In this document: positions 37,668 through 49,786 of the stretch, piece by piece
Position numbering within the stretch: position 1 is the first letter of the stretch
Layout: each line of letters begins with the position of its first letter
Assembly: GCA_027486655.1 (NCBI GenBank)
Contig: JAIXOR010000051.1
Span: forward strand, 62,001-126,000
Length of the DNA: 64,000 bases
Direction: 5' to 3'
From: Verrucomicrobiaceae bacterium
Lineage (GTDB): Bacteria > Verrucomicrobiota > Verrucomicrobiia > Verrucomicrobiales > Akkermansiaceae
Position numbers and translations under genes: made by a program
Notes under the pieces: model-generated
The model's database searches: none
Told to the model about the DNA's origin: nothing
Seen by the model: the letters and a program-made list of their open reading frames with translations, nothing else

Positions 37668-39680
37668 TCAATCCGCGCGACCGATCACCCGGATTTCGAA
37701 TGGATTCTCGTCCGGATCGTTGCTCGGGATCGATATCATCGCCGTCCGCTTGCCTTCCATCGACGGCCGGAAAGTCACCTTGAATGCCATGGTTCCGCCC
37801 GCAGCCAATGAGGTCCCCTCCAGCGGACTTACCTTGAAATCGGACATGCCGGATCCGGATTTCCTCACCGCCAGTTCACCCAGCCTTCCGTTGCCCACGT
37901 TCCGGATCCGGAATGTCAGGGTCTTTCCCGACGAATCCACATCACACTTTCCGAAATCCACGACGGACTTCCCGCTCGCAAGCTCAGTTCCCCGAAGCAC
38001 CGAGATCTCCGGACTGACGCCGAGCCCCATAACCTTGACGCTGAACGGATTCTCATCCTCGTCGTTGCTGTCAATTCGAACCGAGGCCTTCTTGACTCCA
38101 AACGAAGAAGGCTTGAATGCAATCCTAACCGTGGCGCTTTCACCAGGATTGAGCACATCCTCACCCACAAGTTTGACATCGAAGCTGGATGCCCCCGAGC
38201 CGGTCAGGCGCACCTTGATGCCGGATAAGACACCGCCACCGACATTCCGGATCGTCAGTTTCCGGGTGACTGTGGAACCGGCCTTCACCGATCCCAAAGA
38301 CGGCAGGAGATCTCCGTCGGACAGTTCCGATCCCCGGAAGTCCTCAACCATGATGTCCGGCAAATCCGTGCCACCCCCATCGATGCGAAGAACACTCACG
38401 TCCGTCGCGCCTTCTCCGTCATCAGACTCACCACAGAAGAGAATCCGTCCATCCGCCTGCAACGCGGAGTGATAGCAGTAATCATCGAAGCTCGATAGAT
38501 CGTAAATCGAAAAACCAACCCCGTCCGGCCCGAACTCCACATCCGGAACCCCGTCTTCTTCGAAGCGACAAGCGAAGAAATCCGTATCGTCATCGGCTTG
38601 AAATGTCGTTCCACTCAGGATCACAAAACCATCCTCCTGAACCACCATACTGCTGCACTCCTCATACCCTCCGAACAAATCGGCCGTCACATACCCATAT
38701 CCATCACCAAAGTCTTCATCGGCCGTTCCATCGGCAAGGAGACGGGCGAGGAACACATCCGCCGTGCTCTCGTTCTCGACCAACTGACCCGCTACAAGAA
38801 CTCGCCCGGAGGCATCCATCGCGATCGAACTCAGGAAATCATCGCTTCCTTCGGCATCCAGAATCGCAATGCCCGAACCGTCACCGAAGGCGGTGTCGGT
38901 GTCGCCGTCCGCCGTATAGGCGGCAACGAAACCATCCATGCCTCCGTCCTTGTCCTCGAAACAACCGGCAATCCGGATGCCACCATCCGGGCTTATGCAA
39001 ACGGAGGTTCCCCTGTCTGCAAAACCGCCAACGTCCTCCCCGAACACACCCGCACCATCCGAGAAACGCTCATCAAGCTCGCCCTCCTCCGTAATCTTGG
39101 CGACAAGCAAATCCGATGCCCCTGCAGCGTCCGTGATGTAACCCACTGCAATGATCGTTCCATCCGGATTGGGTGCGATGGAAACGTAATCTCCACTCGA
39201 ATCCTCGAATCCAGTCATTCGAATTCCTTCTCCACCCGCAAACGTCGGGTCCGGATCACCTTCCTCGGTAAACCTCGCCACAAAGGCATCAAAACTGCCG
39301 TTGCCACCATCTGCGGACCCACCGACCAGAATCCTCCCGTCTTCCAGAACCACGGCGCAATGGACGTAATCATCCCCACCGCTGATGTCATAGGTCACAC
39401 AGCCCGTGCCATCGCCAAACGACGGATCGGGCGCTCCGGACTCGTCGAGGCGCATGAGAAACCCGTCATACATCCCACTCTCATCCTGAGTGATCCCGGA
39501 AAGAAGAACCCTCCCATCCGCCAAGGCAACCACAGCCCATGCGGCATCTTCAACTCCGCCGAGATCGACGAAGGAAGCGCCATCCAACGAACCAAATCCC
39601 GGATCAGGATCCCCGACCGCCGCATGAGAACACACCACTGAGGCAAGCCCAAGCGACAGGGATAACCCGGCAACTTTCAT
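37668..39680 (-). CDS. Secreted delta-60 repeat / choice-of-anchor D surface protein
   Basis: This protein is about 670 residues long. The ATG at 39680 begins a textbook signal peptide (MKVAGLSLSLGLASVVCSHA). In-frame ATGs at 39809 and 39857 would add an Arg-rich leader, the latter inside a palindrome. About seven delta-60 repeats follow ('DGRVLLSGITQDESGMYDGFLMRLDESGAPDPSFGDG' type), forming a propeller. Two ASPM-SPD-2-Hydin-like Ig segments then carry 'LTIRNVGGGVLSGIKVRLTGSGASSFDV' and 'LTFRIRNVGNGRLGELAVRKSGSGMSDF'. The first ends in 'IDSNDEDENPF' and the second in 'IPSNDPDENPF'. It is probably a cell-surface or extracellular protein; a specific role is unknown. Confidence 0.82.
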   Translation of the reverse strand: MKVAGLSLSLGLASVVCSHAAVGDPDPGFGSLDGASFVDLGGVEDAAWAVVALADGRVLLSGITQDESGMYDGFLMRLDESGAPDPSFGDGTGCVTYDISGGDDYVHCAVVLEDGRILVGGSADGGNGSFDAFVARFTEEGDPDPTFAGGEGIRMTGFEDSSGDYVSIAPNPDGTIIAVGYITDAAGASDLLVAKITEEGELDERFSDGAGVFGEDVGGFADRGTSVCISPDGGIRIAGCFEDKDGGMDGFVAAYTADGDTDTAFGDGSGIAILDAEGSDDFLSSIAMDASGRVLVAGQLVENESTADVFLARLLADGTADEDFGDGYGYVTADLFGGYEECSSMVVQEDGFVILSGTTFQADDDTDFFACRFEEDGVPDVEFGPDGVGFSIYDLSSFDDYCYHSALQADGRILFCGESDDGEGATDVSVLRIDGGGTDLPDIMVEDFRGSELSDGDLLPSLGSVKAGSTVTRKLTIRNVGGGVLSGIKVRLTGSGASSFDVKLVGEDVLNPGESATVRIAFKPSSFGVKKASVRIDSNDEDENPFSVKVMGLGVSPEISVLRGTELASGKSVVDFGKCDVDSSGKTLTFRIRNVGNGRLGELAVRKSGSGMSDFKVSPLEGTSLAAGGTMAFKVTFRPSMEGKRTAMISIPSNDPDENPFEIRVIGRAD

Positions 39681-39828
39681 CAGATGAACGCAGAACACTC
39701 CGGCTCGTCCAAGACCGACCCGACAAACAAGCCCGGCAAGCGGCTCAAGGCGATTGCATGAGATTGCCGCGGTTGATTTGTGGATATGGGACCGTGAAAA
39801 CATGGCCATGAACTTCAACAGAAGCCTC

Positions 39829-39868
39829 AATGCCTGTAAATGGGTGGAATCACCCATTTACAGGCATT
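39829..39868. promoter_or_regulatory. 40-base perfect palindrome upstream of the delta-60 surface-protein gene
   Basis: Left arm AATGCCTGTAAATGGGTG (39829-39846) and its exact complement (39851-39868) flank a 4-base centre. The core AATGGGT-N6-ACCCATT followed by TTAC recurs almost unchanged at 47068-47087 upstream of the giant NHL gene. It could be a protein-binding operator or an mRNA hairpin. The rest of the 39681-40069 gap is A/T-rich with no gene that I can support. Confidence 0.7.
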
Positions 39869-40069
39869 GGAAACTCTTTGACACCTTCAGCCATTGCCAA
39901 TAGCCGTCTTCCGACTTGCGGGAGAGGCCAGAAAATTATCCAACAACCTCAAAGCCATCCTTCCGGTTTTGCAATCTGATAAGTCAAATCCTAATCGGAT
40001 CTATATCCAGAACCTGATCTTGGTTATCACTTAAGTCGACCGAAATCCCATCCATACCACACAAAAACC

Positions 40070-40774
40070 ATGAATCATACCTTGTTTAAAATCGTCCTTT
40101 TTGTTCTTTCGATCCTCTCTCTCCATGCGGGAGTGAACGGCACCTACGTCGTCAAAGGTGGAGAAACAGAGGGGGGTGTTCGAACCGCCTTTACTGGAAC
40201 AATTCGAATGACCGACTACCGTTATGGCTCCGCCAAGCTCGACCTGCAGGACGACGGACCGCCGGTATCATTCAAGTTCACATTGAAAGAAAACCTCATC
40301 GAGTCCGGCGAAAGTCAGACCATTTCAGCTTCATCGAGCACCATGTCCTGCAAGTTGACTTTCTGGGAAGTGGACGGCAGGCGCCTGATGAAGTTCACCT
40401 ACAAGGTCAAAGGCGAGGACATCACCGGTTCCGGATCGGGAAGCTCCGAGGTGAATGGCCTGTACCGAATCGTCGGATCCGAGTCGGAAGAAGGCACCAC
40501 GACACCGTTCAACGGCAAGTTGCTGATCACAAACTACAAGACCGCTATGGTCAGTATTCAGCTGCTGGATGGAGGTCCTCCTTTCTCGTTGAAGTTTGAT
40601 TTCACGAAGTCTCTGAAAGAAACCACGGGTTCTCAGACCGTCAGCGCCTCGAATCCGGATGGATCCTGCAAGGTCACCCTCAAGGAGGTCGCCGGAGAAC
40701 GGCGGCTCACCTTCACTTATCGGTCGTCTGATGGAATTGAGGGGTCAGGCAAGGGAGTCCGGGCGGCTCGATAA
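40070..40774 (+). CDS. Secreted protein of two tandem ~100-residue repeats, unknown family
   Basis: This 234-residue protein has a signal peptide (about residues 1-20). The remainder is two homologous units, residues 22-125 and 128-230. Each runs V-N-G-x-Y, then F-x-G, 'DDGPP' or 'DGGPP', F-K-F, 'SQT(I/V)SAS', a single Cys (C94 and C200), then 'R(R)L.(K/T)FTY' and 'GSG'. The pattern suggests two small beta-rich domains. I recognise no family. It sits between two large surface-protein genes and converges with the giant one, so an extracellular role is likely. Confidence 0.75.
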   Translation: MNHTLFKIVLFVLSILSLHAGVNGTYVVKGGETEGGVRTAFTGTIRMTDYRYGSAKLDLQDDGPPVSFKFTLKENLIESGESQTISASSSTMSCKLTFWEVDGRRLMKFTYKVKGEDITGSGSGSSEVNGLYRIVGSESEEGTTTPFNGKLLITNYKTAMVSIQLLDGGPPFSLKFDFTKSLKETTGSQTVSASNPDGSCKVTLKEVAGERRLTFTYRSSDGIEGSGKGVRAAR

Positions 40775-40818: not shown

Positions 40819-43800
40819 TCATCTCAACACACGAACCCGCATGAATCGGCGGGAGGCGTTTGTCACGACATCCCCGACGCTGACTCTCCTGGCTCCGTTG
40901 TCACCGGCGGTTTCCGAGACCGAAGCCGCACCCGTGAAATCCGCGCCGTTGGTGCTCCGCGCGATCTCGGTCCAGGCACCGCCGAGGGCACTCTGCGCTT
41001 CGACAACGATGGTAACGTCATTGCGCGATGGATCCCGCTGGAAGGAAAGGGCAAGGCGGCGATTTCCGGTGGCTCCCGTCATCTCCGCCTGCGGAAGGCG
41101 GCTGGATCCATTCTGACCGGGTGTCATCAGCAGCGCGTATTTGACAAGGTTGGGAATCCCGTCGCCATCCGGAGTGGCGAGATCCGCTGAGTTGCCGCTG
41201 TTCTGATCACTGCCAAAGTATTGCTGCCGCCAGGAGCCGATCGCTCCACCACCTCCATTCGCAGGGCTTACAGTGATTTGCAACAAGGCGCTGGTGACAC
41301 CACCACCGTTGATACCTTGGAGAGTAATCGTGTAAGTTCCTGCTGAGGCAGGAGTCCAGGAAATGATTCCGGTGGACCGGTCGCATGTCAAACCGCTCGC
41401 CGAGGAGCCCGCCGAAGTTGCTCCATACCTCAGGGCCCCGGTCGCCTGAATCTGATAGGAAAGCGGCTGGCCCACAGTTGCCGTGATGGATCCCGCCTGC
41501 ACCGTCGGTGGGACGATCGCAGGGTTTCCGGCCACGGTGAGCGTGACAAAAAGAGAACCATCTCCATTTGCATTCGACGCACGAACCACGAAGAAGGTTT
41601 GACCCGCCAGAATCGGCGTTCCCTGAATCAAACCTGAGGTCGCGTTGAACGACAGGCCATCAGGTAGCCCCCCCGCCACGCCAGGACCATAAGCACTGAA
41701 CGAAGTCGGTGAATTCGTCGCTGCAATCTGATAGCTGAAGGGTTGACCGACCGTCGCCGTGGCGGTGGCCGGACTGGTGATTTCCGGGTCCGGATCAGGC
41801 GTCACCGTGACGGTGAGCGTCGCCGATCCATAGCCCGCCGCGTTCATCGCCCAGATGGTCGAGGTGTAAGTTCCCGGTTCCGAGGGCCGAGCGGTGATGA
41901 GCCCTGTGGACTCGTCAAACTGAATGCCCATCGGCAGATCCGAAGCCCAATAGGAAGTCGGTGAATTGGTGCCGGTGATCTGGTAGGTGTATTCACGATT
42001 GGAGTTCCGGCTCGCCACCCAGGTTTGATTGAGTGAACTGCTGATTGCCGGAAGGGAGCCAGCACTTGCAGCAGGCGGATTCCCGAGCAGGAATAATCCG
42101 GTTCCCGCGCCTGACGCGCTATGATCACCCGTCGAAAGAGGTGATGTTCCATCACTCAAAGCGGACAGTGAGAGGTTGCCGCCTGAGTCGAATGCGAGCA
42201 AAGGATAATTGTTGTTGCTCGCATTCATCGAGTCCCGCACCCAGATGGCCTCTCCGTCTTGATTGAATTTCGCGAGGTAGCGACCAGAGTTGCCGTTATA
42301 GGCTATTTTGTCAAAAGAGCCGCCATAATCATTGTTTTCGAGGTAGAGCGAGTGGCTACCGTCAAAGGCGATCGCCGGAAGCCCGCTTCCTGGCAAGTCC
42401 TTGATCCACTTCAATCCAAAGGTGGTCGATGCCGAAAGCTTCGCGAGGAAAGCGCCCCCATTGCGTATTCCCGGCAGAGCGATGCTGTTTTCAGGCAAGG
42501 GATCGGAAGGCGGCGGATTAGCATACCTCCCCGCAAGATAGAGTCCACCGGATGCGTCGGCGGTCAGGCAGTTTCTCTCGGACCAGATATCGCCATCAGG
42601 TAGCTGCTTTGCCCAATGGGCCCCGGCCGTCGCTCCTCCGATGCATGCGACAAATGTCGGTTGGGCTGCATTGCCAGAGGGATGAGTAAGCGTGATGGAT
42701 GGATTAGCGCCGCTTCCCGGCACGATCACATTGCCGGAGAAATTTCCTGCGACAAAGATTCCCGGTCCTTGGGGGTCGGCTGCGATTGAATAGATCTGGC
42801 AGACACTTGTGCTGCCAAACATCCTTGGGCTGACAAGTGTGCCCGTTGCGCTGTAACCGGCGACATATCCATTGTTGGCTCCTTCCAGCGAAGACGAGGT
42901 CAGGGTGGTGCCATTGGAAAAACCAAGTGATCCGATAAACCATCCGCCGAACCAGATGTTGTCTGAGCCATCAATTGCCAGGGCTCCGCAGGAAACGTTA
43001 CCACCGCCCACACCCTGCACCCGGGCCCAAGTTCGAGTTCCACCTGTAGAAAGCTTCAGCACAAATAGTTGCTCTCCGGAGACAGCTGTCCCCTCGAACA
43101 TGGAGATCCCGCCATAAAGTTGGCCGCAAGCGATAACATTGCCTGCCGAATCGACTGCGATTTTGCTCAAGTCGCAGAACCCGTCCACAGAGAGCTGATA
43201 GCTCCAAAGAACCTGTCCGGTTGGGCTAACTTTGACAATCAGGGTGCCTTGACCAGCGCTGGGCAACGTGTAGGTGGTCCCTCCCACTGTCACCGCTGAA
43301 TTGTAGAAGTGAGCACCCAGGTAGGTGTTGCCGAACCGATCCTTGACCAGCGCCCTACCATCCAATCCTTCCAGCATCTGTGAGGACGTCGCTACAGCTG
43401 GCTTGGTCACATGAATGATGGCCGAACGCTCGGTTCGCCCCAAGGAGTTTTCTGCCCAAAAAGCAACTCGGAAGGTTCCAGCCGCAATGGGACTGCCTCC
43501 GATCGCATCGTTCACCCCATCATCGTTCCTGTCATACTGAAAAAGGCCCGGCGGCAGGCCCAGCACGCCTGCAGCGGCGGGCGAGTTCGCGGCACCGAAG
43601 TCGTGATTCAGACCTTGGCCGATGCAGGCCCGGATCACACCGGGTTCATTCAAGAAGGGCAGGGCTGATGTTGAGACGACCAGAGTGAGCGTGGCGGAAC
43701 TTTGCTCGCTGCCGTTGGATACCGTCGTGGTCACGGAATAGGTGCCCGCAACGGCCACTGTTCCGCTGATGATACCGGTGGATGCATTCAAGGTCAGTCC

Positions 43801-46800
43801 GGCCGGTAGTCCTGTCGCGCTGAAAGTGACTGGATCCTCCGACGTCGATACAATCTGGTAACTGAAGCTTTGCCCGGCCGGAGCTTGGTGCGTTGCGGCC
43901 AGAAGCTGTGGCAGGGCGGATGCCAATCGCGTCACCGTAACCGTGTAGATCTTCTGGGTTACGCCGTCCTGAGCGGTCACACGCACATTGATCGTATTAC
44001 TGCCCACATTGAGTGGCAGAGAAGCGCTGGGGCTGCTCGAGCTAACGGTGGCATACGTTCCAGCGTTGATCCGCACGGCAAGGATCGCGTTGGCGTCGGA
44101 GCTTGTCGGGGTGACCGTGATGGATGCATTCGAATTGGCTACAATTGCGGCGTAACTGATGGTGGCACTGTCAAACGCCGGGCTTAGCGTGCCTTTGCTG
44201 GAAGTTAGACTGCTCAGATCCGCATTGTTACTCAAGGTGGCAGTGAAAGTTCCACCAGTGCTGGTGGCGGCCCCATCGACATTGGTTGCGGTTAGGCGAT
44301 AGTAGTAGGTCGTTCCGGGGTTAAGACCGGTGAGCACGGCGGAGACGTTCTGTGGCAACGTCCCATTGGACGAACTCAGGGTCACGCTCGCGCTGCTACC
44401 ATACGACAACGTGGTGCCGTATTCAAAAGCGGCCGTGGTCACGAAGCCGTTGGGGTTGACCGTGCCGTTGAGTGTCGCGCCACCACCGCCCAACCCGGTG
44501 ACACTTCCGAGCGTAAGAATGGGCTGAAAGCCTGCTTCGACTCCCTGAACGACTCGGGGATTATTGAGGTCGACTACATATACTTGTCCTGAATTGTTCA
44601 CCGAAACCCCCCTTGGATAATTGAATCGGGCGTTTTCGCCATAACCAACGCTGCACCCAGGAGAACCAGCTTTTCCACCTATGGTTGTAACCAATCCTTC
44701 CGGATTTAATTTGCGAATCAAGTGGTTGGCGGGACTGGCAACATAGACACAACCCGTGCTGTCCACCTCCAAACCTTCGAGAGAATAAAACCGAGCCGCG
44801 CTACCCGTGCCGTCTACATTTCCTGAACTTCCCGCCTTTCCCGCCAAGGTAGTCACCACACCCAAAGGGGTCACCTTGCGGATCGTGTAGTTGCCGCTGT
44901 CGGCAACATAAACGTTACCCGTGCTGTCCACCGAAATACCCGATGGCCCGTTGAATCGAGCGGCGGTGCCCGTGCCATCGGCACTTCCGCTGGTTAGTGC
45001 AGCGCCCGCCAGGGTAGTCACCACGCCGGCTGGAGTCACCTTCCGGATCGTGTGGTTAGAGCGATCGGCCACATAAACGTTGCCCGCGCTATCGACGGCC
45101 ACATCCGAAGGAGCTGAGAACCGCGCTGCATCGCCAGTGCCGTCCGCACTGCCACTGACATACTCAGTTCCAGCCAAGATTGTCACCACACCTCCTGAGG
45201 TTACCTTTTTGATGGATTGTCCACTGATCGCATAGAGATTGCCTGATGCATCTGACGATAGACCCCCGAACGTCAGGGAGCCGCCCCCCAGCAGGGTTGT
45301 CACGACTCCTGAATTGGTGATTTTGCGTAGCGATGGATCTCCGTAGGAAGAGACATAAATATTTCCTGTGCTGTCCACTTCCACGTCTTTCGTGCCGTTG
45401 AATCGTGCCGCCCTCCCCGTTCCGTCTACGGTCTCAAAAACAGCTGCGCTTCCAACCTGGGTGGTTACGACACCTGCCGATGTTACCTTGCGAATCGTGT
45501 GATTAAGACTATCCGCCACATAAACATTTCCAGCACCATCCACTGACATTCCTTGCGGAGAGAGGAATTTCGCAGCACTACCTGTTCCGTCAGTGCTTCC
45601 GCTGCTACTGCCCGCCAAAGTGGTGACCACACCGACTGGAGTAACCTTTCGGATTTTGTTGTAGTAGCTATCGGCCACATACAAATTGCCAGTGCTATCG
45701 ACGGTAATACCTGTAGGGTTATAGAATCGAGCGGAGCTTCCTGTACCATTGGAGCTTCCGCTACTGTAAGCCGTACCTGCCAAGGTTGTTACGACGCCGG
45801 CGGAAGTCACTTTCCGAACCGTGTGGGCATTTCTATCGGTGACATACACATTGCCTGATGAATCGACTGTCACTCCGTACAATTCACTAAACATGGCGGC
45901 GCTTCCTATACCATCAGTGCTGCCGCTGCTACCGCTGCCAGCCAATGTAGTGACCACGCCATTTTGTGACACTTTTCTTAACCTGGTTTGATCAGCTACA
46001 TAGACATTTCCTGAACTATCCACGGCGACAGCAGAGGGGTAGATAAAACGAGCGGCGGCACCAGTGCCGTCGGTGCTTCCCATAACGTTGTAACTTCCCG
46101 CCAGCGTTGTCACCTCACCAGCCGGCGTAACCTTGCGGATTGTGCGGCTCCATCCGCCAGCTACATAGACATTTCCCGAGTTGTCCACTGCAATACCAAG
46201 GGGCTTGTTAAACCGTGCAGCGCTGCCGACGCTGTCAGCGCCCCCGATCATCCTCGCTGTGCCCGCCAAAGTCGTTACAACACCAGACGAGTTAACCTTG
46301 CGTATTGTATGGTTCTCGGTATCAGCAACATAGATGTTACCCGAGCTGTCGATTGCCACGCCACTTGGGGTATTGAATGTGGCGTCAAGACTCATTCCAT
46401 CTGCCGAACCAAGGCCGCCGGTGCTACCTGCCAAGTGGCTCCAGAGGTAGGTGTTGCTGCTGGTGACCTGGCCTGACCCTGCAACCCGCGTAAGGGTGAT
46501 GTCATTGCCGGTCCCCCCGACGTAGCTGATGCGGAAAGTGAAGGTGTTTCCGCCGTAAGTGGCGGTTCGTGTGGCCCCTTCGGCAAGCCCGGTGAAGGTT
46601 CCGCTGATGGCACCGGTTCCTGTGTTGTTCACCAAGAGCAGCTGCTGCCCCGGAGTTGGAGAAAAGTTCAATGCGACCGTGAGTGTGCCGCTGGCGGTGT
46701 AGCTGCTTGCGGTGGCTCCCACTTCGTAGGGGGAATTGAAGGTCGCCGACAATGCACCGAAGGCTGTGGCTGCGCCGAGCAGGAGAGATCCAAGGGCCAC

Positions 46801-47034
46801 TGCGGGCTTGATGACCGGTTGGGCCCTGAAGAAACCCCTTTTCCCGAGCAAGCCTGCGTGGACGGGGTGCTCTTTGGAAACGAGACAGCGGGTTGCCAGC
46901 AAGCGGAGCGCGAAAGTCCGGAATCGCAATCCGGCGAGACGTCCCAGACCGGAGAAGGTTGGGGATCCAGGATTCCCGACCGGTGAACCTTCCGAATCGC
47001 GATTGGCGGAAGGCAGTACCTTGTGTGCACTCAT
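40819..47034 (-). CDS. Giant secreted NHL-repeat / Ig-like surface protein (2071 residues)
   Basis: A long Arg-rich leader precedes a hydrophobic export segment at about residues 75-95 (VALGSLLLGAATAFGA). At least eleven NHL repeats follow (about 215-840), each 'G(V/I).VDS.GN(V/L)YVAD..N.TIRKVT..GVVTTLAG'. After them come a fibronectin-like piece ('TYYYRLTATNVDGAA'), a cadherin-like beta-sandwich ('NADLSSLTSSKGTLSPAFDSATISYAA'), a second propeller-like part and several putative Ig domains ('GQPFSYQI.AT(N)SP(T)SF'). The end is 'ASRRFMRVRVLR', usual in Verrucomicrobia surface proteins. The true start may lie downstream of 47034 (for example a TTG just before 'LGKRGFF'). It is probably a surface or adhesive protein. 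Confidence 0.85.
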   Translation of the reverse strand: MSAHKVLPSANRDSEGSPVGNPGSPTFSGLGRLAGLRFRTFALRLLATRCLVSKEHPVHAGLLGKRGFFRAQPVIKPAVALGSLLLGAATAFGALSATFNSPYEVGATASSYTASGTLTVALNFSPTPGQQLLLVNNTGTGAISGTFTGLAEGATRTATYGGNTFTFRISYVGGTGNDITLTRVAGSGQVTSSNTYLWSHLAGSTGGLGSADGMSLDATFNTPSGVAIDSSGNIYVADTENHTIRKVNSSGVVTTLAGTARMIGGADSVGSAARFNKPLGIAVDNSGNVYVAGGWSRTIRKVTPAGEVTTLAGSYNVMGSTDGTGAAARFIYPSAVAVDSSGNVYVADQTRLRKVSQNGVVTTLAGSGSSGSTDGIGSAAMFSELYGVTVDSSGNVYVTDRNAHTVRKVTSAGVVTTLAGTAYSSGSSNGTGSSARFYNPTGITVDSTGNLYVADSYYNKIRKVTPVGVVTTLAGSSSGSTDGTGSAAKFLSPQGMSVDGAGNVYVADSLNHTIRKVTSAGVVTTQVGSAAVFETVDGTGRAARFNGTKDVEVDSTGNIYVSSYGDPSLRKITNSGVVTTLLGGGSLTFGGLSSDASGNLYAISGQSIKKVTSGGVVTILAGTEYVSGSADGTGDAARFSAPSDVAVDSAGNVYVADRSNHTIRKVTPAGVVTTLAGAALTSGSADGTGTAARFNGPSGISVDSTGNVYVADSGNYTIRKVTPLGVVTTLAGKAGSSGNVDGTGSAARFYSLEGLEVDSTGCVYVASPANHLIRKLNPEGLVTTIGGKAGSPGCSVGYGENARFNYPRGVSVNNSGQVYVVDLNNPRVVQGVEAGFQPILTLGSVTGLGGGGATLNGTVNPNGFVTTAAFEYGTTLSYGSSASVTLSSSNGTLPQNVSAVLTGLNPGTTYYYRLTATNVDGAATSTGGTFTATLSNNADLSSLTSSKGTLSPAFDSATISYAAIVANSNASITVTPTSSDANAILAVRINAGTYATVSSSSPSASLPLNVGSNTINVRVTAQDGVTQKIYTVTVTRLASALPQLLAATHQAPAGQSFSYQIVSTSEDPVTFSATGLPAGLTLNASTGIISGTVAVAGTYSVTTTVSNGSEQSSATLTLVVSTSALPFLNEPGVIRACIGQGLNHDFGAANSPAAAGVLGLPPGLFQYDRNDDGVNDAIGGSPIAAGTFRVAFWAENSLGRTERSAIIHVTKPAVATSSQMLEGLDGRALVKDRFGNTYLGAHFYNSAVTVGGTTYTLPSAGQGTLIVKVSPTGQVLWSYQLSVDGFCDLSKIAVDSAGNVIACGQLYGGISMFEGTAVSGEQLFVLKLSTGGTRTWARVQGVGGGNVSCGALAIDGSDNIWFGGWFIGSLGFSNGTTLTSSSLEGANNGYVAGYSATGTLVSPRMFGSTSVCQIYSIAADPQGPGIFVAGNFSGNVIVPGSGANPSITLTHPSGNAAQPTFVACIGGATAGAHWAKQLPDGDIWSERNCLTADASGGLYLAGRYANPPPSDPLPENSIALPGIRNGGAFLAKLSASTTFGLKWIKDLPGSGLPAIAFDGSHSLYLENNDYGGSFDKIAYNGNSGRYLAKFNQDGEAIWVRDSMNASNNNYPLLAFDSGGNLSLSALSDGTSPLSTGDHSASGAGTGLFLLGNPPAASAGSLPAISSSLNQTWVASRNSNREYTYQITGTNSPTSYWASDLPMGIQFDESTGLITARPSEPGTYTSTIWAMNAAGYGSATLTVTVTPDPDPEITSPATATATVGQPFSYQIAATNSPTSFSAYGPGVAGGLPDGLSFNATSGLIQGTPILAGQTFFVVRASNANGDGSLFVTLTVAGNPAIVPPTVQAGSITATVGQPLSYQIQATGALRYGATSAGSSASGLTCDRSTGIISWTPASAGTYTITLQGINGGGVTSALLQITVSPANGGGGAIGSWRQQYFGSDQNSGNSADLATPDGDGIPNLVKYALLMTPGQNGSSRLPQAEMTGATGNRRLALSFQRDPSRNDVTIVVEAQSALGGAWTEIARSTNGADFTGAASVSETAGDNGARRVSVGDVVTNASRRFMRVRVLR

Positions 47035-47067: not shown

Positions 47068-47087
47068 AATGGGTCGGATCACCCATT
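47068..47087. promoter_or_regulatory. Palindrome shared with 39829-39868, upstream of the giant NHL gene
   Basis: AATGGGT-CGGATC-ACCCATT. On the minus strand, the 23 bases including the trailing TTAC match the core of the 39829-39868 palindrome except at two centre positions. It lies about 30 bases upstream of the 47034 start and between that gene and the divergent FHA-LuxR regulator gene, a natural place for an operator. No other clear copy was noticed in the window. Confidence 0.6.
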
Positions 47088-47275: not shown

Positions 47276-48121
47276 ATGTCGCAAGTGATCCTGAACTTTG
47301 AGTCTTCGGACGGAACCATGTTGTCCGCCACCGGGGTGCCCTGTTTGATCGGGCGTTCTCCGTCTTGTGCGGTGCGGGTTTCCTCGCCGGAGGTTTCCCG
47401 GCGGCATGCGGTGATCCTTCGGGACGGTCGGGATTGGTGGCTGGTCGACTGTGGTTCGAGGGGGGGCACCTGGTTGAACAACACACGGATCGGGAACGCG
47501 GTGAAGTTGGTGCACGGCGATTTCATCGGGGTCGGACTGGTGAGCCTGCGTTTTCTCCCGGGCAGCGATGCGGGAGGAGCGGCGGGCGGCAGGGATCCGG
47601 CGATTGAGACCACGCGACCGGGTGAGGCCGAATGGTTGGTCACCAGCGAGACGGCGGTGCTGTGGGTGGACGATCGGGGTGCGATTCTGGGCCTGACGCC
47701 AACGGCCAGACTTTGGTTGAGCGCTTTTTTCGATGGATTTGGCGATCGTCTACCTGCCTGTCTGATGGATTGGGTCCAGGCAGACTCACCGTCAAGAGTG
47801 CCTTATGAGAGGAAGGTGGGAGAGGAGCGGCTGCGGGTGAATGCCTGCGAGGATCCACAGGGCGGGAGGATGCTGGTGTTGAGCCGGTTGAAACCGGCTT
47901 TCGGAGTGGAAGCGCTGAGACGGATGGGATTGAGCAAGGCCGAGGCGCTGTTGGTGCCGTGGCTGATTCGAGGCAAGCGCAACGAGGAAATGGCGATGAT
48001 TGTGGGCATTTCCCCGAAAACGGTGGAGAAGCAGGTGGCCAGCATTCTGTCCAAGCTCAAAGTGGAGACCCGGACCGCGGCTGCCTGGAGCATCATCGAA
48101 CTGACCGGCGCCCATTGGTGA
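47276..48121 (+). CDS. FHA-domain LuxR-type transcriptional regulator
   Basis: The 281-residue protein has an N-terminal FHA domain with its phosphothreonine-binding residues: G26-R27 ('CLIGRSPSC'), 'EVSRRHAVIL' (S41, R42, H44) and 'GGTWLNNTRI' (N68). The middle region (about 115-205) may be a degenerate sensor domain. The C-terminal LuxR/GerE helix-turn-helix is 'GLSKAEALLVPWLIRGKRNEEMAMIVGISPKTVEKQVASILSKLKV' (about 220-268). FHA fused directly to a LuxR domain, next to a Ser/Thr kinase gene that converges 15 bases away, suggests phosphorylation-controlled transcription. It is divergent from the giant surface-protein gene and could regulate it. Confidence 0.85.
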   Translation: MSQVILNFESSDGTMLSATGVPCLIGRSPSCAVRVSSPEVSRRHAVILRDGRDWWLVDCGSRGGTWLNNTRIGNAVKLVHGDFIGVGLVSLRFLPGSDAGGAAGGRDPAIETTRPGEAEWLVTSETAVLWVDDRGAILGLTPTARLWLSAFFDGFGDRLPACLMDWVQADSPSRVPYERKVGEERLRVNACEDPQGGRMLVLSRLKPAFGVEALRRMGLSKAEALLVPWLIRGKRNEEMAMIVGISPKTVEKQVASILSKLKVETRTAAAWSIIELTGAHW

Positions 48122-48136
48122 ACGGCGGAATCTCTG

Positions 48137-49786
48137 TTAGATAGCGCGGATGCGGACATGCCGGAAGCGGGCCTCGATCCATGGTCCGTAATAGAGCATC
48201 ATCTTGAGTCCGATCCCACCGCTCAGGCGTCTTGAGTCCGGATCATCATCGATGCAGTCCACAATGGTGATGCCATTGAGTTGGTGAACAAGACGGTTCT
48301 TCACGGCGCGGATCGTGAGGTCGTTCCAGCCGAGATTCCGGTAGGCCTGTTTCAGGCTTTCCTCGTCGGTGACATGACCCAGCAGTTCCGGCTTGCGGCT
48401 TCCAGCCTCACAGGTATAGCGGACCTTTTGAGTGGGTCGTGCCAGCATGTCCCGGCCACCGATTTCCCGAAGGCCGCAGTTGTATTTCCATATCGGTTCG
48501 AAATCGAGATCATATGAGACCGTGGAAGGGTTCTGGCCGATGCGGTATCGGACACCGAGGTTTCCGGCATCGGTTTCCGGCAGTTTGAGGCGCACTTGGA
48601 GACGAAGTTCGAAGTCATCGGGAACCGGGCCCGTCCATTCGAGGAACTCCTTGCGCCAATTGCTGGCATCGGCCATTCGGAGGGCTTCGAGGCGGCCGCA
48701 GATGGCGCCGTCCTCAACCTTCCACGCCTGGGGGTGGCCCCGCCAACCGTTCAGGGTCTTCCCATCGAAGATCGGTTTGAATCCGGCTTCGGTTTGCAGA
48801 GGCCGGTTCCGGTTTGCGATCACCGGCACTGCCCCGCAAAGGGCGAAGCCGAGTCCACAGCCCGTGAGGGTGATGAGTGCTTTGCGGCGGCCGGCGTCAG
48901 AGTCCGATTCCTTCTCCAGCATCGCAGCGAGGGCGGCGGCCGATGACGGGCGGCGCGAAGCATCTTTGGCAAGGCAGGCCGATAGGATGCGGACCACCGC
49001 CCGGGGGATGGGGTTGACGACGCCGCGCTGCTTTTGATGCGCGATGACGGAAGGGGCCGTCGTGTTGAGAATCTGGTGAACCAGATGCCCGGTGGAGAAT
49101 GGCGGGCTGCCGACCAGAAGCGTGTGAAGCGTTGCGCCTGTGGCATAGAGATCGTCCGCTGGTTCCGGAGGAGCTCCGTTGATCTGCTGCGGGCTCATGA
49201 ATGCCAGCGTTCCGCTTGAAACCATTTCCACCGTACGGGTCAACTCGACCTGGGATTGCGAGGTGAGTGCCGCACAGCCGAAGTCGACGAGCTTGAGCCG
49301 GCCAGTCTCGCTGACGAGGAGATTGGAAGGCTTCAGATCGCGGTGGACGACTCCTTTTGAGTGAGCATGGTCCAAGGCGCTGCAAAGCTGGAGGGCGAGC
49401 GGTTTGAGGAGTTGCCAAGAAAGAATCCCGCCATGCCTGTCCGCCAGTGCTGCCAGACTCGGGCCGTCGATTTTTTCCATTTCGATCAAGGCACGGCCAT
49501 CGTCACCGGAATGGATGCCGTGCACCTTCACGATGTGGGGGTGAGAGAGTTCCATCAGCAGTTTGCCCTCCGTTTCCAGGGAGCAACGGGTCGGGTGGAT
49601 GCCGTGCAGGATCTTCAAAGCGACGGTACGCGCGTCGCATCGGGCCTCCCAGACTTCGCCCATGGATCCGGCTCCCAGCCTGCGAAGCAGCTGATAGCGG
49701 TCCGGCATCCGAAGGGCCTGGTTTGCAGCTGGCGTCATTACGACATCCATTCGGTTAGGAACGAGGTGCTCCTTTTGGAATGGCAT
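48137..49786 (-). CDS. Membrane Ser/Thr protein kinase fused to an extracellular DUF1080 domain
   Basis: The 549-residue protein has an N-terminal Hanks-type kinase (about 31-292): Gly loop 'LGAGSMGEVW', K58 in 'VALKIL', catalytic 'HRDLKPSN' (D150), 'VDFG' (D168) and 'SPQQ' in place of APE. One transmembrane helix follows (about 303-323, ITLTGCGLGFALCGAVPVIA). A DUF1080 / 3-keto-disaccharide hydrolase-type beta-sandwich (about 336-549) then starts 'FKPIFDGKTLNGWRGHPQAWKVEDGAICG'. By topology the DUF1080 part is outside the membrane and may sense or bind sugar. It converges with the FHA-LuxR gene, whose FHA could read kinase phosphorylation. ATG at 49786; downstream Mets at residues 13, 17 and 27 are possible. 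Confidence 0.88.
   Translation of the reverse strand: MPFQKEHLVPNRMDVVMTPAANQALRMPDRYQLLRRLGAGSMGEVWEARCDARTVALKILHGIHPTRCSLETEGKLLMELSHPHIVKVHGIHSGDDGRALIEMEKIDGPSLAALADRHGGILSWQLLKPLALQLCSALDHAHSKGVVHRDLKPSNLLVSETGRLKLVDFGCAALTSQSQVELTRTVEMVSSGTLAFMSPQQINGAPPEPADDLYATGATLHTLLVGSPPFSTGHLVHQILNTTAPSVIAHQKQRGVVNPIPRAVVRILSACLAKDASRRPSSAAALAAMLEKESDSDAGRRKALITLTGCGLGFALCGAVPVIANRNRPLQTEAGFKPIFDGKTLNGWRGHPQAWKVEDGAICGRLEALRMADASNWRKEFLEWTGPVPDDFELRLQVRLKLPETDAGNLGVRYRIGQNPSTVSYDLDFEPIWKYNCGLREIGGRDMLARPTQKVRYTCEAGSRKPELLGHVTDEESLKQAYRNLGWNDLTIRAVKNRLVHQLNGITIVDCIDDDPDSRRLSGGIGLKMMLYYGPWIEARFRHVRIRAI

Follow-up and report, generated by a model that had tools for sequence, protein, structure and literature searches.

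The closest described counterpart of the locus analysed here is the PknH/EmbR pair of Mycobacterium tuberculosis, in which the kinase PknH phosphorylates EmbR and the FHA domain is required (accessible part of PMC4601284). Both systems combine a Ser/Thr kinase with an FHA-bearing DNA-binding regulator, the kinase here being presumed to act on the regulator. They differ in construction: as the accessible part of PMC4601284 describes it, EmbR has an OmpR-type DNA-binding domain, a BTA domain and a C-terminal FHA domain, whereas the regulator here has an N-terminal FHA domain, a PAS-like middle and a C-terminal LuxR-type helix-turn-helix (HTH). Unlike PknH, the kinase here carries a 3keto-disac_hyd domain as its outer domain. 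Because PknH/EmbR works in this way, the idea of the circuit is not new in kind and, by analogy, we regard that pair as a clear precedent for a kinase–FHA-regulator circuit; a first, sequence-only reading of this DNA had called the phospho-relay possibly new. A literature search on FHA/LuxR and DUF1080 kinases, with limited coverage of subscription journals, gave, judging by the listed entries, no paper on an FHA-LuxR regulator with a kinase, and one of its matches (PMC7159879) was, in its accessible part, unrelated.

Regulators of the LuxR/NarL family (VraR, GerE and CviR) share the GerE HTH with the present protein, in which, unlike in that family, FHA and PAS-like domains replace the receiver or autoinducer domain. 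The predicted operator described below, a 20-bp 7-6-7 palindrome, also resembles the lux box. GarA/OdhI and Bdellovibrio DgcB have an FHA fold of the same phosphothreonine-reading type, but lack a DNA-binding domain and have enzymes or a cyclase as targets.

The window, that is, the whole 64,000-nucleotide stretch of DNA analysed (G000:C45:62001-126000, G000 being its genome of origin, which the kinds of genes suggest to be that of a member of the Verrucomicrobiota), holds the kinase, the FHA regulator, the predicted operator and the probable targets within about 12 kb (Table 1). The layout given by the sequence-only reading is correct in coordinates and strands: the regulator is convergent with the kinase across a 15-base gap, and a palindrome separates it from the divergent gene for a giant protein. 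The kinase gene is also the sole one of the window (one Pkinase match in range, the next on the contig starting 1.7 kb beyond the window end). A scan for promoters and terminators gave nothing above shuffles. We propose, with a probability of about 0.62, a local phosphorylation-to-transcription circuit that would run from the kinase through the FHA-LuxR regulator and the palindromes to genes of secreted proteins. What was computed is the pairing of the two genes and how far it is conserved, the operator with its rarity and its match to the recognition helix, and the conserved giant; these are taken up below.

Table 1. Features of the locus, in window coordinates.
Feature	Position	Strand	Basis or location
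DUF5122 beta-propeller/ASH-like protein; probable second target	37668..39857	−	Pfam, operator upstream
Second predicted operator copy	39839..39858	.	upstream of the 37668-39857 gene, divergent from 40070
Possible target: 234-aa protein whose gene diverges from that of the DUF5122 protein and has the second operator region in common with it	40070..40774	+	position only
Giant protein, 2071 aa, NHL propeller repeats, He_PIG and cadherin-like domains; probable target	40819..47034	−	Pfam
20-bp palindromic predicted operator, AATGGGT-N6-ACCCATT	47068..47087	.	between regulator and giant gene
FHA–PAS-like–LuxR (GerE) HTH regulator, 281 aa	47276..48121	+	Pfam and predicted model
Hanks-type Ser/Thr kinase, one hydrophobic segment, C-terminal 3keto-disac_hyd (DUF1080-type) domain, 549 aa	48137..49786	−	

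In the regulator, Pfam matches only FHA (PF00498; 68.2 bits, cut-off 20.7), Yop-YscD_cpl and GerE (the LuxR HTH, residues 219-270; 37.6 bits, cut-off 23.5), with FHA and GerE thus assigned as true family members; no receiver domain is matched, the FHA domain standing in its place, so that the protein does not class as a NarL-type two-component response regulator. FHA domains contact phosphothreonine through Gly-Arg, Ser-x-x-His and Asn. All three elements are present here (G26 R27, S41 RR H44 and N68) and residues I25 G26 R27, S41-A45 and N68 are unchanged in 24/24 aligned sequences, from which phosphothreonine binding is predicted. The structure model (pLDDT 81) comprises the FHA domain, a ββααβββ middle domain and the HTH; the middle domain may be called PAS-like, a label taken from the order of its secondary structure elements alone. 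The FHA domain of EmbR is the top match both in the profile search (E 1.6e-18) and in the structural alignment with the model (Z 15.7), and a second structural comparison covered mainly the FHA part.

The catalytic Lys, HRD and DFG motifs are the hallmarks of Hanks-type kinases. The kinase (Pkinase PF00069, 147.3 bits) belongs to this type, with K58, H148-R149-D150 and D168-F169-G170 unchanged in all three kinases compared. Its C-terminal domain is a member of the 3keto-disac_hyd family (PF06439; 77.4 bits, cut-off 26.8) that weakly resembles putative glycosyl hydrolases in the PDB, and may only bind, without catalysis. Hydrophobicity peaks near residue 305, and the sole hydrophobic segment (residues ~300-322) is preceded by a twin-arginine-like motif, RRRFL in the two relatives (2/3 kinases) and RRKAL here, which resembles an internal Tat-type signal. 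The kinase model was poor (mean pLDDT 56, from three sequences) and was left out of the conclusions. Elsewhere in the genome, a single 426-aa open frame (G000:C68:4367-5518) carries both FHA and Pkinase, forming an FHA-kinase fusion.

A profile built from the three full-length regulators (A1) found a full-length match in 3/73 genomes of the genus, namely G000, G024 (61% identical to G000) and G020 (46%), two of the three being incomplete drafts (59% and 81%). In each, the same kinase, with both its kinase and 3keto-disac_hyd domains, is convergent with and adjacent to the regulator, at gaps of 15, 12 and 0 bases, respectively, and the kinases of the two relatives are 57-59% and 44-45% identical. 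Among 386 genomes drawn from the order, with four candidates scored per genome, the kinase profile aligned over its whole length in just two, G000 and G024, both of which have the regulator; hits in 37 further genomes covered the catalytic part, and G020 was absent among the matches of this draw. Full-length FHA-PAS-LuxR proteins occurred in 23 of the 386: G000, G024 and 21 genomes of a second family, f4 (20 in genus g8 and one in g43). In a draw of 387 genomes from the phylum, with six candidates per genome scored, G000 alone matched at a threshold of E 1e-22. Hits on contigs of loci L072-L074 were discarded as FHA-LuxR candidates, matching only to a short peptide; the open frames read in L073 and L074 look otherwise, presumably encoding ribonuclease Z.

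None of the 21 f4 regulators has an adjoining kinase, although some of these loci end at contig ends (e.g. L107), and in L105 a kinase frame lies 2.8 kb from the regulator. The co-occurrence expected by the sequence-only reading therefore holds within the genus and fails in f4, making the pairing a property of the genus cassette and not of the regulator family, and implying that an FHA-LuxR protein can work without a linked kinase. In many of the f4 loci L103-L123, the product of the gene convergent with the regulator is a 3keto-disac_hyd protein that looks secreted (family F6, 12 loci). The kinase has an outer domain of this type too, but the two are barely similar in sequence; a link between these DUF1080 neighbours and the kinase domain was dropped, the sequences being too unlike.

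The f4 regulators, with their conserved predicted operators and no linked kinase, are also an argument for a different reading, in which the FHA-LuxR protein controls secreted-protein genes through the palindromes, but takes its phosphothreonine from unlinked kinases or intramolecularly, while the neighbouring kinase has other substrates. The genome (a 5.33 Mb draft with 18 Pkinase, 3 FHA and 20 GerE matches) offers other kinases that could be the partner, and a convergent gene order is no proof of co-expression. We nonetheless consider this reading unlikely, since the pair stays together in 3/3 genomes of the genus at regulator identities of just 61% and 46%, and none of the 386 genomes yielded a full-length kinase unaccompanied by the regulator.

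The transcriptional half of the proposed circuit depends on the palindrome. Taken singly, a 7-6-7 palindrome could be due to chance, as 701 bases contain 8 inverted-repeat pairs and, with up to three mismatches allowed, 56/100 shuffles have at least two matches. Its 25-bp stretch, palindrome with neighbours, CGTAAATGGGTCGGATCACCCATTG, is however identical in the G024 intergenic region: the two intergenic regions align with a local score of 50, against a shuffled maximum of 26 and a score of 22 with the palindrome masked, and the remainder outside the 25 bp is at chance. Without mismatch, AATGGGTN6ACCCATT occurs at four sites in the 73 genus genomes, two each in G000 and G024 only, and a reversed control pattern at none. 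Read in the direction of a gene whose product looks secreted (as judged by eye from the N-terminal sequence), all four sites give AATGGGTGATYCSACCCATTTAC, in the same orientation and with the same asymmetric centre and extension; those of G000 face the giant and the DUF5122 protein, and those of G024 face a protein without Pfam match, encoded divergently from the regulator, and an Ig-repeat-like protein. G020 has no such copy. Instead, AATAGGTAN4TACCCNATT stands twice in the interval separating its regulator from a divergent gene, the product of which starts with a signal-like sequence; the pattern was derived from this pair of copies, which therefore fit it without mismatch by definition, and the 4.0 Mb of G020 hold no further match with up to two mismatches. 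Near-matches to this motif in G000:C70 and G009 were taken as chance.

A related 20-bp 7-6-7 palindrome, WATNGGYN6RCCNATW (e.g. TATTGGCAGACCTGCCAATA), stands upstream of the regulator in 21/21 f4 loci, in 18 without mismatch and in three with one. It lies 157-182 bases before the FHA IGR codon in 19 of them and 1017 bases before it in L105; for L112, the anchor fell on a decoy IGR in an overlong N-terminus. Shuffled f4 loci predict 0.18 palindromes in 258 kb, and 443 kb of control DNA contained two hits, both imperfect, of which one fell in a locus brought in by a motif search; a control set that still included repeat copies of the same loci had given 36 hits in 614 kb. Exact conservation, genus-wide rarity beyond chance and the f4 palindromes against these controls led us to reject a chance palindrome.

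Five half-site types pair with five recognition-helix types in 24/24 loci: TATTGGC with HT[VA]NRH (17 loci), TATTGGT with HTVKRH (two), TATGGGC with R[TA]VNHH (two), AATGGGT with KTVEKQ (two) and AATAGGT with RTVEKH (one). Both arms vary together between classes, and every class has its own helix, although the loci are related and the 24 matches are hence not 24 independent events. Given the conserved operator and this matching, the FHA-LuxR protein is very probably what recognises the palindrome and regulates the genes of surface proteins.

The site could instead belong to another regulator, or form an RNA hairpin in a 5' leader. The second copy does lie inside a perfect hairpin (window 39820-39885; arms of ~18 bp, a 4-base loop) that folds stably between two divergent genes of secreted-looking proteins, and the shared orientation and asymmetry of the four sites would fit such an element. 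The tracking of half-site by helix in 24/24 loci, with co-varying arms, speaks against it, as does the lack of the motif in G002 and G012, two close relatives of G024 (84% and 89% complete) that also lack a full-length regulator, and we rate this explanation as improbable.

Phylogeny alone does not explain the distribution of operator types. The RseP of the window (named from sequence by eye) served as a control protein for relatedness and was matched in 67/73 genomes: G020 is closest to G000 (82%), identity drops to 58% for G002 and 57% for G012, and G024 gave no match. Three clear G024 genes are 95-97% identical to those of G002/G012 and 58-69% identical to those of G000. In the recognition region, G024 is identical to G000 at 25/26 positions and G020 at 17/26; G024, far from G000 by its core genes, yet shares its operator, so that the operator sorts with the regulator rather than by species phylogeny.

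The giant, a probable target, is itself conserved in part. Across 1026 aligned columns, its residues 1051-2071 share 62% identity with a 1440-aa giant of G024 (L124:9516-13838) encoded 3 kb from the regulator there. Residues 1701-2000 reach about 88%, in two genomes that show 58-69% identity in the core proteins compared, whereas the N-termini are unrelated, with NHL repeats in G000 and RCC1 repeats in G024. The Ig-repeat-like protein, which lies at the second site of G024, also has the giant's C-terminal domain (44% across 91 aa). For the DUF5122 gene, the true start is probably near 39680. The 234-aa protein has no Pfam family and is built as a tandem pair of related repeats, each about 110 aa long. 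With the operator, the giant and the helix–operator matching combined, the link to the surface-protein promoter drawn by the sequence-only reading is strongly supported, and that reading as a whole is partly supported.

That an orphan regulator and a kinase converged by chance as functionally unlinked neighbours, as the lack of an operon in a convergent order and the kinase-free f4 relatives might suggest, is highly improbable given an adjacency kept in three genomes, with a giant also conserved nearby, and in a clade (that of G024) whose RseP is just 57-58% identical to that of G000.

In the proposed local circuit, the membrane kinase would sense an outside cue via its C-terminal carbohydrate-hydrolase-like domain and then autophosphorylate. 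The FHA domain of the regulator would dock on a phosphothreonine, either in the kinase or within the regulator, altering dimerisation or DNA binding of the LuxR HTH on the 20-bp palindromes, and the HTH would thereby switch genes that encode large secreted proteins of the beta-propeller/Ig kind, with the regulator's own gene as a probable further target. Signal, phosphotransfer, FHA docking and the sign of regulation are steps that we infer, and we regard the step from kinase to FHA as likely; the predicted regulator–operator–target part is well supported by comparative genomics. More tentatively, and at somewhat less than even odds, the locus may represent a patchily distributed cassette in which a kinase with an outer domain resembling a sugar hydrolase and a dedicated FHA-PAS-LuxR protein switch giant secreted proteins with species-swapped N-terminal propellers via a private operator that the rest of the genome lacks, the wider FHA-PAS-LuxR family being autoregulated, phosphothreonine-read transcription factors whose recognition helix predicts the operator.

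Many bacterial Ser/Thr kinases are known, and few have dedicated transcriptional outputs with a known operator, PknH/EmbR being the main example found. Here, the predicted operator is defined to the base, and its natural variants are matched to changes in the recognition helix. This opens FHA-gated transcription beyond the actinobacteria to tests on small purified components, and makes a phosphorylation-to-transcription circuit directly testable in this bacterial group.
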